64,000 nucleotides of DNA, taken from assembly GCA_035063765.1 (NCBI GenBank), contig JAPSFT010000001.1, positions 71,497-135,496 on the forward strand. Direction: 5' to 3'. Numbering within the stretch: position 1 is the first letter of the stretch; every line of letters starts with the position of its first letter. The position numbers and the translations under genes are program-made. Source of the DNA: Deltaproteobacteria bacterium. Lineage in GTDB: Bacteria > Myxococcota_A > UBA9160 > PR03. The notes under the pieces were generated by a model, which saw only the letters and a program-made list of their open reading frames with translations, ran no database searches and was not told the DNA's origin. Positions 49,841-54,351 of this stretch are shown here, piece after piece.

Positions 49841-51295
49841 TCATCGGCCGGAGGCGGCAGCTCCTGAAAGGAAGGCGCGGGGCGGCTCGGGAAGCTCCCC
49901 GGAGGCTCCGGGGGCGCAGGGGGTCCCCAGGAGGGAATGGGGAGTGGCCTCGGCGATCCGGACCTCCACGAGCGCCCCCGGGCCCGTCCGGGGCCCCGGG
50001 TCGCCGCCGGCCCCCGGCTCCGCCTCGAGGTGGACGATCCGGTGCTGGGGGTCGCGGCCCTGGAGCCCCCCGCCCTTCCGGCTCGGGCCCTCGACGAGCA
50101 CCTCCGTGCGCGAGCCCACCCGGCCCCGGTGGTAGGCGATCGTGAGCCCGCGCTGGAGCGCCTGGAGGGCCTCGAGGCGGGCCTGGGCCTCCCCGGCCGG
50201 AACGGAGCCCTCGCTCTCGCCGGCGGCGGCGGCCGTGCCGGGGCGCGGCGAGTACTTGAACGAGTACGCGTCGACGAAGCCCACGTCGCGCACGAGCGCC
50301 AGGGTGTCCTCGAAGTCGCGCTCGCTCTCGCCCGGGAAGCCCACGATCAGGTCCGTCGTCAGGACGAGGTCCGGCCTGGCGGCGCGCAGCCGGGCGGCGA
50401 GCGCGCGCACGTCGTCGGCGCGATAGCGGCGTCGCATGCGGGCCAGGACCGCATCCGAGCCGCTCTGGGCCGGCAGGTGGACGTGCGGCTGGAGGGTCGC
50501 GAGCGCGCCGTGGGCCGCGATCAGGGCGTCGTCGAAGAAGATCGGGTGGGGGCTCGTGTAGCGGAGCCGGCGCAGACCCGGGACGGCATCGAGGCGGTGC
50601 AGGAGCTCGGCGAAGGCGACGGTGCCCGTGCGCTCCGCGTGGCCCCGCCGCCGGTCGTGGCGGCCGTAGGCGTTCACGGTCTGCCCGAGCAGGGTCACCT
50701 CGACCACCCCGCCCGCCGCCAGCGCCTCCACCTCGCGCACGATCGCCTCGGCCGGCCGGCTGATCTCGCGGCCGCGCGTGTGGGGGACGATGCAGAAGCT
50801 GCAGAACATGTCGCAGCCTTCCATCACCGTGACGAAGGCGCGGCCCGGGGTCTCGCTCGAGAGGGCCGGGTGGCGGCCCGGCAGGTCGAAGCGGGCGAGA
50901 TCGCGCTGCTCGCCCGTCTCCGCGCGGCGCTGGCCGGCCAGGGCGGCGTCGGCGAGCGCCGGGACGAGCCGCAGGTTGTGGGTGCCGAAGACGAAGTCGA
51001 CCTGCGGGAACCGGGCCAGGAGGAGATCGCCCTCCTGCTGGGCCACGCAGCCGCCGACCCCGACGAGGCGGCCCGGCTGCTCCTCCTTCCACCGCCGCAG
51101 GAGGCCGAGGTCGCTGTAGAGCTTGTGCTCCGCCTTCTCGCGGACGGAGCAGGTGTTGACCACCAGGAGATCCGCCGCCTCGGCGCCGCCGGCCGCAGCC
51201 CAGCCCGCGTGGAGCAGGAGGTTCGCGACCTTCTCCGAGTCGTGGGCGTTCATCTGGCACCCGAAGGTGCGGATCGCGAAGCGCTTTTCGGCCAT
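49841..51295 (-). CDS. miaB: tRNA (N6-isopentenyl adenosine)-C2 methylthiotransferase
   Basis: 484 residues. UPF0004 domain with Cys residues in FGCQMNAHDSEKV, TCSVREKAE and GGCVAQQEG, a radical-SAM CxxxCxxC (EGCDMFCSFCIVP) and TSPHPIFFDD, then a TRAM domain with a Gly/Pro-rich extension. It adds the methylthio group at A37 of tRNAs reading UNN codons using two iron-sulfur clusters. Confidence 0.96.
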   Translation of the reverse strand: MAEKRFAIRTFGCQMNAHDSEKVANLLLHAGWAAAGGAEAADLLVVNTCSVREKAEHKLYSDLGLLRRWKEEQPGRLVGVGGCVAQQEGDLLLARFPQVDFVFGTHNLRLVPALADAALAGQRRAETGEQRDLARFDLPGRHPALSSETPGRAFVTVMEGCDMFCSFCIVPHTRGREISRPAEAIVREVEALAAGGVVEVTLLGQTVNAYGRHDRRRGHAERTGTVAFAELLHRLDAVPGLRRLRYTSPHPIFFDDALIAAHGALATLQPHVHLPAQSGSDAVLARMRRRYRADDVRALAARLRAARPDLVLTTDLIVGFPGESERDFEDTLALVRDVGFVDAYSFKYSPRPGTAAAAGESEGSVPAGEAQARLEALQALQRGLTIAYHRGRVGSRTEVLVEGPSRKGGGLQGRDPQHRIVHLEAEPGAGGDPGPRTGPGALVEVRIAEATPHSLLGTPCAPGASGELPEPPRAFLSGAAASGR

Positions 51296-51421
51296 GGGCG
51301 GGCCGAACCTATCCGACGGGGTCGGGGCCTGCCAAGCGCTGCGACGGCCAGGACCCCGCGGGGCTCCGAGGCTTCTCCCGCCCGTCCGCGCGAACGAAAT
51401 GCAGCGATCGACAAATCATGT

Positions 51422-51451
51422 TTGACACGGCGATGTGACCGCAGGCATACT
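51422..51451 (+). promoter_or_regulatory. Promoter of the candidate small RNA
   Basis: TTGACA (51422-51427), a perfect -35 consensus, followed after 18 bases by CATACT (51446-51451), in a stretch unusually AT-rich for this window. No gene lies downstream on the plus strand; a structured region and terminator do. Confidence 0.6.
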
Positions 51452-51457
51452 GCGTTC

Positions 51458-51628
51458 GTTGCCAGAGAGAGGTCGCCCAGACAACGATTCACTCAGGTTA
51501 CGGAGCGGCGGTGGATATGGCATTTCGACACGAAATGTCCAACCTCTCACCCCCCATCATCTATCCACCGCCACTCCCCCCTGTACGACGCCCCGCCCGA
51601 GCCCCGGCTCCGGCGGGGCGTCTCGTTT
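51458..51628 (+). ncRNA. Candidate structured small RNA with C-rich loops
   Basis: Between a consensus-like promoter and an intrinsic terminator lies about 170 bases without a gene. Perfect stems: GGCGGTGGATA (51507-51517) with TATCCACCGCC (51562-51572), enclosing CATTTCG-ACA-CGAAATG (51521-51537). Two unpaired C-rich runs (51541-51555 and 51573-51582) could pair with Shine-Dalgarno sequences. It converges with the VWA gene. No match to 6S, SRP, tmRNA or RNase P is apparent. 5' end estimated. Confidence 0.6.
51587..51628 (+). terminator. Intrinsic terminator of the candidate small RNA
   Basis: An 11 bp perfect stem GACGCCCCGCC / GGCGGGGCGTC, continuing past a C/C mismatch into GAGC/GCTC, followed by TCGTTT. 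It is the best terminator in the window. Confidence 0.75.
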
Positions 51629-51702
51629 CGGCAGGGCGGGACGGTCCCCGGTGATCGAATGCGCAACGGTGCAAGAGATCGGCGGTGGGAGTCGAGATCG
51701 GA

Positions 51703-53130
51703 TCAGAGCACGAGCTTGTCGACGACCTTGGAGAGCTGGCGGAGGTTGCGGCATTCCTCGGCGACGCTCGTGTAGGGGAGGTACTTGTCCATCACGCTGT
51801 CGCCGAAGCCCCAGGCGCTCGGGCTCTCGGGGTTCAGCCAGATCACGTTCTTGGCCTTGGCGTGCACGTCGCGCAGGCACCAGGCCTTCGGGTCGTTGTA
51901 GTTGTTGCGGGCGTCGCCGAGCACGAGCACGGTGGTCTTGGCGTCGATCGCGTTCAGGTAGTCGCGCCAGAAGGTGTGGAAGGCCATCCCGAAGTTCGAG
52001 CGCGTGTAGACGTTGATGACGCCCCCGCCCTCGAGCGCCTCCTCGATCGCCTTGCCCACCTCGTGGTCGTGGAAGACCTGGGTCACCTCGCCGAGCTCCG
52101 CCACGAAGACGAAGCTGCGGATCTTCGTGAAGCACTCCTGGAGGCTGTAGACGAACTGCAGCATGAAACGCGAGACGTTCGCGACCGACGACGAGACGTC
52201 GCAGAGGATCACGAGCTTCGGGCGGTCCTTGCGCCGCTCCTTGAACACCAGCTCGAAGGGCACCCCGCCGCGCGCCATGTTGCGGCGCAGCATGGTGTGG
52301 AGGTCGAGCTTGCCCTTCTTGAGCCGCCGGCGGCGGATCGACATCACGTTCTTGATGCGCTGGGCGAGGCGGTTCACCACCTCGCGCATCCGCGCGATCT
52401 CCTCCTCCGTGAGGCTGTAGAAGCTCTTCTCGAAGAGCGCCTCACGGCGGAACTTCTCCATGTAGTCGAAGTTCCGGGTCTGGAGCTCGCGCTCCATGTA
52501 GCTGCGCACGCTCTGGCGCAGCGCCTCGAAGAAGCGCTCGGCGAGCCGCCCGATCGCCTCGGCCTCGGCGTCGCCCATCCCGGCGGCGCGCAGGCGCGCG
52601 GCCAGGTCGCGCAGCTCGCGGGTGGCGCCCTCGGCGTTCATCGCCTCGAGCGTCCGGCGGCCGAAGAAGCCGATCTGGAGCATGTTCTCGATCCGCGCGA
52701 CGCCGCTCTGGGCGGCGGCGGCGCGGATCATCTGCTCGAGCTCCGAGAGGTCGCCGGTGAGCAGCGCCCGCGCCAGGTCCGAGAGGTCCACCTCCCCTTC
52801 CGGCACCTGTCCGCTCTCGAGCATCTCGCGGATCTTCTGGAGCAACTGCTCCATGTCGATCCCGTCGGTGGCGAGCGCCCCGGCCGCCTGCTCGAAGGCG
52901 TGCTTCAGGTTGTCGTGGAAGCCCGACCAGTAGAGGTCGAAGAGCTGGTCGTAGGTGGCGACGTCGTCGCCGCGCTTCACCAGCGAGGCGCGCAGCGCGT
53001 CGCGGAACACCTCGCGATCGTCGATCGAGAGCTCGTCGAGGGCCGCGAAGGCGTCGATCGCCTCCGCCACCGACACGCGCAGCCCGCTCTTGCGCAGCAG
53101 GTTCGCGAACTCGACGATCTTGCGTTGCAC
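51703..53130 (-). CDS. VWA-domain protein, CoxE-like
   Basis: 475 residues from GTG 53130. Helical N-terminal region (FANLLRKSGLRVSVAEAIDAF), then a von Willebrand A domain with MIDAS residues in LVILCDVSSSVANVSRFML, matching DUF444/CoxE proteins. Such proteins pair with a MoxR ATPase to mature metal cofactor enzymes or act on protein complexes. The MoxR gene lies upstream, separated by a small inserted element. Confidence 0.9.
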   Translation of the reverse strand: MQRKIVEFANLLRKSGLRVSVAEAIDAFAALDELSIDDREVFRDALRASLVKRGDDVATYDQLFDLYWSGFHDNLKHAFEQAAGALATDGIDMEQLLQKIREMLESGQVPEGEVDLSDLARALLTGDLSELEQMIRAAAAQSGVARIENMLQIGFFGRRTLEAMNAEGATRELRDLAARLRAAGMGDAEAEAIGRLAERFFEALRQSVRSYMERELQTRNFDYMEKFRREALFEKSFYSLTEEEIARMREVVNRLAQRIKNVMSIRRRRLKKGKLDLHTMLRRNMARGGVPFELVFKERRKDRPKLVILCDVSSSVANVSRFMLQFVYSLQECFTKIRSFVFVAELGEVTQVFHDHEVGKAIEEALEGGGVINVYTRSNFGMAFHTFWRDYLNAIDAKTTVLVLGDARNNYNDPKAWCLRDVHAKAKNVIWLNPESPSAWGFGDSVMDKYLPYTSVAEECRNLRQLSKVVDKLVL

Positions 53131-53159
53131 GCGCTCGACTCCGCGGGCCGCGTCGCTAG

Positions 53160-53349
53160 TGCCCTGTCTCGGAAGTTCGCCTGCATTCGATCGCGGCTAC
53201 GGGCCGCTCGCAGCGTTGCGCTCCCTCCCCATGGCGACGGCCATGACTCGGTCGCGCGCCTTGCGAGCGGCCCGTAGCCGCGATCTCGGTGCACACCCAG
53301 CCGCCCGCGACGGCTCGAGACTTCGACGGCGAACTTCCGACACAGGACA
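53160..53349. mobile_element. MITE-like non-autonomous element between moxR and the VWA gene
   Basis: 190 bp with 22-base terminal inverted repeats (53160-53181 and 53328-53349, 20 of 22 matching), flanked on both sides by CTAG (53156-53159 and 53350-53353), a plausible 4-base target duplication. Internally a second, perfect 24 bp inverted repeat (53189-53212 / 53262-53285) can form a long hairpin. It has no transposase. Length, paired inverted repeats and target duplication fit a MITE mobilised by an IS in trans. Confidence 0.82.
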
Positions 53350-54351
53350 CTAGTGCAGCGTGCCCTTCTTGGCAGGCGTGGCCGGCCCGCTGCCCGCGGG
53401 CGGGGCGGCGCCGGGCGCCGCTCCCGGCGCCGCGGCGGGCGGGCGCGCCGCCATCATGCGGGACAGCTCCTGCTGCGCCTTCCGGATGTCCGCCTCGTAC
53501 TTCAGGATCACGCTCATGGTGTCCTTCACGACCTCCTCGCCGAGGCTCTCGGCGTTGAGCGCGAGCAGCGCCCGCGCCCAGTCGATCGTCTCCGCGATCG
53601 AGGGCGTCTTCTTGAGGTCCACCTGGCGCAGCCGCTGCATCATCGTGACGAGGTCCTCGGCCAGCTTGCGGTCGATCCCGGGCACCTTGGTCGCGAGGAT
53701 CTTCAGCTCGACGGCCTCGCTCGGGTAGTCGATCCACAGGTGCAGGCAGCGGCGCTTGAGGGCGTCGCTCATCTCACGGGCGTCGTTCGAGGTGAGGAAG
53801 ACGAGCGGGCGGTGCTTGGCGGCGAAGGTGCCGATCTCGGGCACCGTCACCTGGAAGTCCGAGAGCACCTCGAGCAGGAAGGCCTCGAACTCGGGGTCGG
53901 ACTTGTCCACCTCGTCGATCAGCAGCGCGCAGGGCGCGTCGGTGGTGATCGCGTGGAGGAGCGGGCGCGGCACCACGAACTGGTCCGAGAAGAAGACGCT
54001 GTCCTGCTGCCCGACCCGCTCGGCGGCCTCGCGCAGGCTCTTCGTGCCCGCCATCACCTCGCCGATCTTCTCCTTCAGGATCTGGGTGTAGAGGAGCTGC
54101 TTCGAGTACTCCCACTCGTAGAGGGCCTTGGCCTCGTCGAGGCCCTCGTAGCACTGGAGGCGGATCAGCTCGCGGCCGGTGGCGGCAGCCACGACCTTCG
54201 CGAGCTCGGTCTTGCCGACGCCCGCCGGGCCTTCGACCAGGATCGGCTTCTCGAGCCGGTGGGCGAGGAACACGACGGTGGCGATGCGCTTGTCGCAGAT
54301 GTAGCCCTGCTTCTCGAGCTGCTTCTGGACGTCCTGGACGCTGTCGAACAT
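53350..54351 (-). CDS. MoxR-family AAA ATPase
   Basis: 333 residues from ATG 54351. Walker A VEGPAGVGKTELAK, Walker B LLIDEVDKSDPEFEAFLLEVLSDF, sensor 1 FLTSNDAREMSDALKRRC. A Pro/Ala/Gly-rich tail ends the protein. MoxR proteins act as chaperones with VWA partners. The TAG stop comes from the CTAG repeat flanking the MITE-like element, so the insertion may have altered the C-terminus. Confidence 0.93.
   Translation of the reverse strand: MFDSVQDVQKQLEKQGYICDKRIATVVFLAHRLEKPILVEGPAGVGKTELAKVVAAATGRELIRLQCYEGLDEAKALYEWEYSKQLLYTQILKEKIGEVMAGTKSLREAAERVGQQDSVFFSDQFVVPRPLLHAITTDAPCALLIDEVDKSDPEFEAFLLEVLSDFQVTVPEIGTFAAKHRPLVFLTSNDAREMSDALKRRCLHLWIDYPSEAVELKILATKVPGIDRKLAEDLVTMMQRLRQVDLKKTPSIAETIDWARALLALNAESLGEEVVKDTMSVILKYEADIRKAQQELSRMMAARPPAAAPGAAPGAAPPAGSGPATPAKKGTLH

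Follow-up and report, generated by a model that had tools for sequence, protein, structure and literature searches.

A conserved small RNA candidate of an uncultured Myxococcota class with a predicted antisense match to ftsZ and ftsA

Several small RNAs act on ftsZ or on other cell-cycle genes. DicF, a 53-nt RNA from the Qin prophage of E. coli, pairs with ftsZ mRNA and represses its translation, and division is inhibited; Hfq matters for this action (PMC5069750). DinR, which is specific to Klebsiella, is a cleavage product of the dinI mRNA 3′ end, is LexA-controlled and Hfq-dependent, and base-pairs at the ftsZ ribosome-binding site (PMC10907235). StfZ of E. coli is antisense to ftsZ and encoded in cis within ftsA-ftsZ (PMC9628754). 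EcpR1 of Sinorhizobium, a repressor of cell-cycle genes, has a loop UCCGCCGCAUCU and two separate stem-loops; dnaA and gcrA are its confirmed targets, and regulation of ftsZ is unconfirmed (PMC4414408). Within the Myxococcota, Pxr of Myxococcus xanthus has a predicted sigma-54 promoter and three stem-loops and controls fruiting-body development, and M. xanthus is reported to be without Hfq (PMC5684412). Of the ftsZ-targeting RNAs in the literature we searched, DicF and DinR are species-specific or carried on a prophage, and StfZ is a cis-antisense RNA.

Here we describe a candidate small RNA of an undescribed family, found in a window (the whole stretch of DNA analysed) of 64,000 nucleotides. 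Like DicF, it is complementary to the ftsZ translation start and has viral copies as well. Unlike prophage-borne DicF, it is a core chromosomal gene of its class with fixed synteny and its own promoter and terminator; it also matches ftsA, has no Rfam match and resides in a genome without detectable Hfq. The site it is predicted to match is the one bound by DinR and, unlike StfZ, it is unlinked to ftsZ. It shares with EcpR1 a chromosomal location and a strongly conserved unpaired loop; the EcpR1-type sequence itself is absent, the unpaired bulge being CAACCUCUCACCCCCCAUCA. Like Pxr, it is a stem-loop RNA from the same phylum and from organisms without detectable Hfq; no sigma-54 promoter was found at the locus, where the promoter is of sigma-70 type by consensus. 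The best reading is that the RNA would work like DicF or DinR while being related to neither. It is likely, in our view, a trans-acting antisense RNA, acquired by phages as well, that prevents translation of ftsZ and ftsA. In the literature searched, outside which most subscription journals lay, we found no description of the RNA, of its fixation across the class, of its two predicted targets or of the loop that cell and virus share.

Locus, fold and distribution of the RNA

The gene lies between divergent miaB and a convergent VWA-domain gene, where G+C content is 58.5% (positions 51400–51599) compared with 65–77% in the surroundings (Table 1). Over 1.1 kb, no sigma-70-like site other than its promoter, TTGACA/CATACT, was detected; shuffled sequences give 0.1. 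Homologue promoters are nearly invariant, reading (G)TTTGAC-N17-CATAAT in the order to which this genome belongs and (G)ATTGAC...CATAAT in a second order. A G+C hairpin 3′ of the outer helix P1 also recurs in homologues, and at the sequence level the conserved promoter and terminator mark out an independent transcription unit. A sequence-only reading of this DNA had proposed the near-consensus promoter, the strong terminator, the gap between the miaB and VWA genes and the drop in G+C, all of which held up. Beyond the VWA gene follow a moxR-like ATPase gene, ribBA and mglA homologues. Within positions 51703–54351, the VWA and MoxR-like proteins match the NCBIfam MadC and MadB models, below the cut-offs of those models.

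Table 1. Features of the candidate RNA locus (window positions) and of its viral copies.
Feature	Positions	Strand	Remarks
Candidate small RNA	51502–51622	+	undescribed family
Promoter	51422–51451	+	−35 TTGACA 51422–51427, 18-nt spacer, −10 CATACT 51446–51451
5′ leader	51458–51501	+	sequence and length vary among homologues (alignment); predicted start site
Outer helix P1, 5′ strand	51502–51517	+	GGAGCGGCGGUGGAUA; folding, alignment, covariation
Inner hairpin P2	51519–51539	+	GGCAUUUCG/CGAAAUGUC; folding, alignment, covariation
Unpaired bulge	51540–51559	+	CAACCUCUCACCCCCCAUCA; essentially invariant, on the 3′ side; kept in viral copies
Part of bulge complementary to ftsZ/ftsA Shine-Dalgarno	51543–51555	+	CCUCUCACCCCCC
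Outer helix P1, 3′ strand	51562–51577	+	UAUCCACCGCCACUCC; folding, alignment, covariation
Intrinsic terminator	51587–51629	+	stem 51587–51597/51612–51622, then UCGUUUC
miaB	49841–51295	−	divergent neighbour, kept in class; TIGR01574 above cut-off
VWA-domain gene	51703–53130	−	convergent neighbour, kept in class
Viral copy L367			stem GGCCCCGCAGGG/CCCTGCGGGGCC; adjoins serine recombinase
Viral copy L368			stem TGCCAGAGGCGGAACA/TGTTCCGTCTCTGGCA; contig with terminase and portal genes
Viral copy L370			stem AGAGTGGCGGTGGATT/AGTCTGCCGCCACTCT; T4-like clamp, clamp loader, Hsp20
Viral copy L397			stem GGAGAGGCGG/CCGCCTCTCC; relative of L370, RNA at same place

Folding of positions 51458–51632 gave an energy of −82 kcal/mol (z = −6.5), and 0 of 200 shuffles came as low. 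The fold contains the perfect stems noted in the sequence-only reading, GGCGGUGGAUA/UAUCCACCGCC (11 bp) and CAUUUCG/CGAAAUG (7 bp), and leaves unpaired the C-rich run that had been read as such. The conserved unit consists of positions 51502–51577 plus the terminator, laid out as GGAGNGGCGGUGGAU-[GNCAUUUC..GAAAUGUC]-CAACCUCUCACCCCCCAUCA-NNNAUCCACCGCC(N)CUCC and then the terminator; the 5′ leader is the one unconserved part, and upstream of GGAG it is down to ~10 nt in L021 and L025. Across 62 distinct sequences, standard pairs occupy 98% of pair cells. Two-sided changes were seen in 9 of 20 pairs, which was matched by 0 of 500 shuffles and by no slid register, and compensatory changes fall on 6 of the 13 P1 pairs and on 3 of the 4 pairs at the base of P2. 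The bulge CAACCUCUCACCCCCCA shows almost no variation in either order, unlike the stems and flanks, and its median unpaired probability is 0.99 (50 homologues). An open loop that is kept while the paired letters are free to change is the pattern that would be expected of an antisense seed. We also considered a conserved short ORF (ATG GAG CGG CGG in many homologues) and rejected it, as other homologues have ACG, CCG or CTG for ATG and frame-breaking indels.

Of 60 relatives, 52 gave a match to the RNA in a DNA search, with essentially one copy each. Searching relatives with a covariance model, as the sequence-only reading had suggested, found a single copy in 76 of the 90 genomes that represent an uncultured Myxococcota class, both sampled orders included; the genomes compared are kin and these counts are not independent. 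We take this class to be UBA9160 of GTDB. Across it, the arrangement miaB, RNA, VWA-moxR-ribBA-mglA is fixed, sometimes with an insert of 1–3 kb. Outside the class, the rest of 377 phylum genomes gave no credible match; a 32-bit match in G255 proved to be palindromic, repeat-like sequence without the bulge. When 84,980 species genomes were scanned for CCAACCTCTCACCCCCCAWMA, 48 stretches came back, mostly in deltaproteobacterial or Myxococcota metagenome assemblies, UBA9160 included. One of them, on a Granulicella contig (L070), has the exact bulge without a surrounding scaffold and was taken as chance. Together, the breadth of conservation, the compensatory stem changes and the essentially invariant unpaired loop agree with the earlier proposal of a stand-alone structured small RNA.

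That proposal had named no known family, and the Rfam scan likewise gave no match at gathering score and none of relevance at E up to 10; at the locus, neither the DicF nor the 6S RNA (RF00013) model matched. A diverged 6S RNA or other housekeeping RNA would fit the single copy, the class-wide presence and the own promoter, and the Rfam 6S model matches 2 of 30 genomes (G000–G029). However, the shape and length differ, even the permissive Rfam scan gave nothing relevant, and G002 carries an over-cut-off 6S match besides the candidate RNA, which leaves this explanation a negligible probability. Separately, 6S RNA may have diverged or been lost in this order.

Complementarity to ftsZ and ftsA

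The ftsZ and ftsA Shine-Dalgarno sites can base-pair with the bulge, GGGGGGUGAGAG-AUG being the best match. The starts of both genes were read in 53 class members and in 18 genomes from elsewhere; FtsA and FtsZ of the genome containing the window pass NCBIfam cut-offs. In its order, at least eight contiguous Watson-Crick pairs form at 32 of 40 ftsZ sites (8–14 pairs) and at 25 of 45 ftsA sites (8–13 pairs). Such matches occur at 2 of 8 ftsZ and 0 of 8 ftsA sites in the second order, where complementarity mostly spans 5–8 nt and the sites still usually contain five or six consecutive G, and at 0 of 9 ftsZ and 0 of 18 ftsA sites outside the class. Examples at ftsZ include TGGGGGGTGAGAGG-ATG (G040), GGGGGGTGAGAG-ATG (G010, G014 and G011) and GGGGGGTGAGTC-ATG (the genome under study); at ftsA they include GGGGGGGTGAGAGG-ATG (G012), GGGGGTGAGAGGA-ATG (G002, G004 and G005) and GGGGGGAGAGGGAG-ATG (the genome under study). 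Some RNA-bearing genomes are without a good site at one of the genes, for instance at ftsA in L181, L198 and L261. In G019, an order member that is 74% complete, the RNA was not found and neither the ftsZ nor the ftsA site is present. Because the bulge is essentially invariant, covariation between bulge and targets is not seen.

Several measures set these two genes apart from 15 other gene groups, taken from the cell-wall/division cluster and from genes next to the RNA. The median duplex energy is −24.7 kcal/mol at ftsZ and −23.3 kcal/mol at ftsA, versus −15.9 kcal/mol or weaker in the other groups, and GGGGUGA is present in 69%, 53% and 0%, respectively. Among 349 crudely called starts (400 kb) of G010, ftsZ ranked first and ftsA second; a ranking from G014 was left out for its poor gene calls (wrong strand). 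Shuffled seeds reached the real median in 2 of 1,000 trials for ftsZ and 1 of 1,000 for ftsA, or in 3 and 2 of 1,000 when the C6 run was kept. By energy alone, equally strong sites occur elsewhere, mostly within genes, at 25–28 per 800 kb scanned, and the case for the targets therefore rests on position and recurrence. The sequence-only reading had remarked that regulatory RNAs often block Shine-Dalgarno sequences with C-rich loops; the comparative evidence agrees and indicates ftsZ and ftsA as the likely targets.

A G-rich Shine-Dalgarno partly fits any C-rich RNA. As an alternative, the bulge might resemble the 16S rRNA 3′ end and pair broadly with many G-rich sites, ftsZ and ftsA being just the most visible. 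UCACC-CC is indeed common to the bulge and the 16S tail, ftsZ and ftsA have the strongest predicted ribosome pairing among the gene groups tested, and single-genome matches exist at pilC, at a LapA-like gene and upstream of dnaA. Yet among starts with GGGGUGAGAG in 24 genomes, ftsA (9) and ftsZ (4) alone recur, nothing was found at the 15 other gene groups, and the usual Shine-Dalgarno of G010, GGAGG, fits the C run poorly. We therefore judge a broad regulator unlikely. When the complement UGGGGGGUGAGAGGUUG was searched in the 24 genomes with up to two mismatches, one match was the ftsA Shine-Dalgarno of G012.

The letters of the sites point the same way. The middle base of GGNGG is G rather than A at 33:0 ftsZ and 30:2 ftsA sites, that is, G in 63 of 65, versus 14:56 (G in 14 of 70) in other G010 genes. 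With GGGGG over the GGAGG usual in G010, the ftsZ and ftsA sites therefore fit the RNA better than the ribosome. The base 3′ of GGUGA is G in 35 sites, A in 10 and never U, which is the preference of the 16S tail. These bases, the class-specific complementarity at two operon partners and the order-of-letters test (1–3 per 1,000) all speak against a bulge that serves as a protein-binding site, with the RNA titrating or guiding a C-rich-binding protein and the ftsZ/ftsA match secondary. Such strict conservation of the bulge across the two orders would suit a protein ligand too, and target matches are weaker in the second order; on balance, we find this explanation quite improbable and continue with antisense pairing at ftsZ and ftsA.

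Other candidate targets were considered. Neighbouring genes gave no consistent match, and the matches in L167 and L168 lie antisense to one conserved XerC-like coding stretch that the two genomes share. GGGGUGAGAG-AUG near many G008 contig ends was set aside as a repeated element; GGGGTGAGAGATG, seen close to the ends of some nine G008 contigs (for example, L248), is probably a mobile or repeated element. Single-genome sites with GGGGGGUGAGAG at a start lie at a pilC-like gene (L157, G022), a LapA-like gene (L247, G021) and a gene for a small exported protein (L160, G010). Across 400 kb of G014, the seed matches most strongly at L161 (G014:C4:59579–59595, − strand), where GGGGGGGUGAGAGGUUC (−35.7 kcal/mol) falls within the leader of an apparent dnaA, a possible second cell-cycle target.

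Viral copies

We searched IMG/VR contigs for the exact 18- or 16-nt bulge, which yielded L367, L368 and L370, and a 14-nt scan added L397. In these at least four viral contigs the bulge is kept within the same architecture, with an outer stem of 10–16 bp. The stems of L370 and L397 are similar to cellular P1 (GAGTGGCGGTGGATT, GGAGAGGCGG), and those of L367 and L368 are dissimilar. At random positions, 7 of 1,960 trials gave an outer stem with 12 or more pairs, including 6 G-C. Other viral contigs with a 14–16-nt piece of the bulge have no enclosing scaffold and were taken as chance, and L393 was rejected for wrong spacing despite its stem. That the bulge persists in otherwise altered RNAs supports a role through pairing, and a loop common to cell and virus suggests that both hold back cell division with the RNA. 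In the T4-like contigs L370 and L397, the RNA sits between the same two genes, upstream of a phrog_1574 gene; more distant relatives of the pair (52–69% protein identity) have no RNA at that place.

Proposed action on division

Transcription from the RNA's own promoter would end at its own terminator and give an RNA of ~125–170 nt, in which P1 and P2 would hold the C-rich bulge open on the 3′ side. CCUCUCACCCCCC would then pair with GGGGGGUGAGAG-type Shine-Dalgarno sequences at ftsZ and ftsA. The duplex would mask the ribosome-binding site as far as the start codon and presumably lower translation of both division proteins. This mechanism is known in kind, because DicF and DinR, occupying the ftsZ ribosome-binding site, repress FtsZ and block division. 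Phages would use RNAs that keep this bulge on stems of mostly different sequence, probably to stop the infected cell's division. Hfq gave no model match in the genome under study (96% complete) and was found in 5 of 14 control genomes; pairing would therefore proceed there without Hfq.

Complementarity by itself is also compatible with an RNA that activates or protects the ftsZ and ftsA mRNAs, or with mRNAs that act as sponges for the RNA. Pairing would, however, cover the Shine-Dalgarno itself, and the known binders of the ftsZ Shine-Dalgarno, DicF and DinR, repress (PMC5069750, PMC10907235); we hold activation or sponging to be very improbable and repression to be the preferred reading.

A more far-reaching version stands, in our estimate, at an even chance. 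Here, one core, apparently Hfq-independent RNA would control FtsZ and FtsA throughout the class, the Shine-Dalgarno sites would be locked into GGGGGGUGAG, away from GGAGG, and several phage lineages would independently have captured or re-evolved the loop to shut down host division. If true, RNA control of the divisome would be an ancient housekeeping layer, class-wide, at a fixed locus and with no detectable Hfq. The viral copies constitute a natural test, as phages kept the loop and changed the stems. The RNA would also offer a first regulatory handle on this uncultured class, with a covariance model for finding it in metatranscriptomes.

A separate observation concerns FtsZ itself (L177–L199 and L254–L280): the stretch before the GTPase core spans 38–97 residues in this order, compared with 13 in the second order and 13–26 outside the class.
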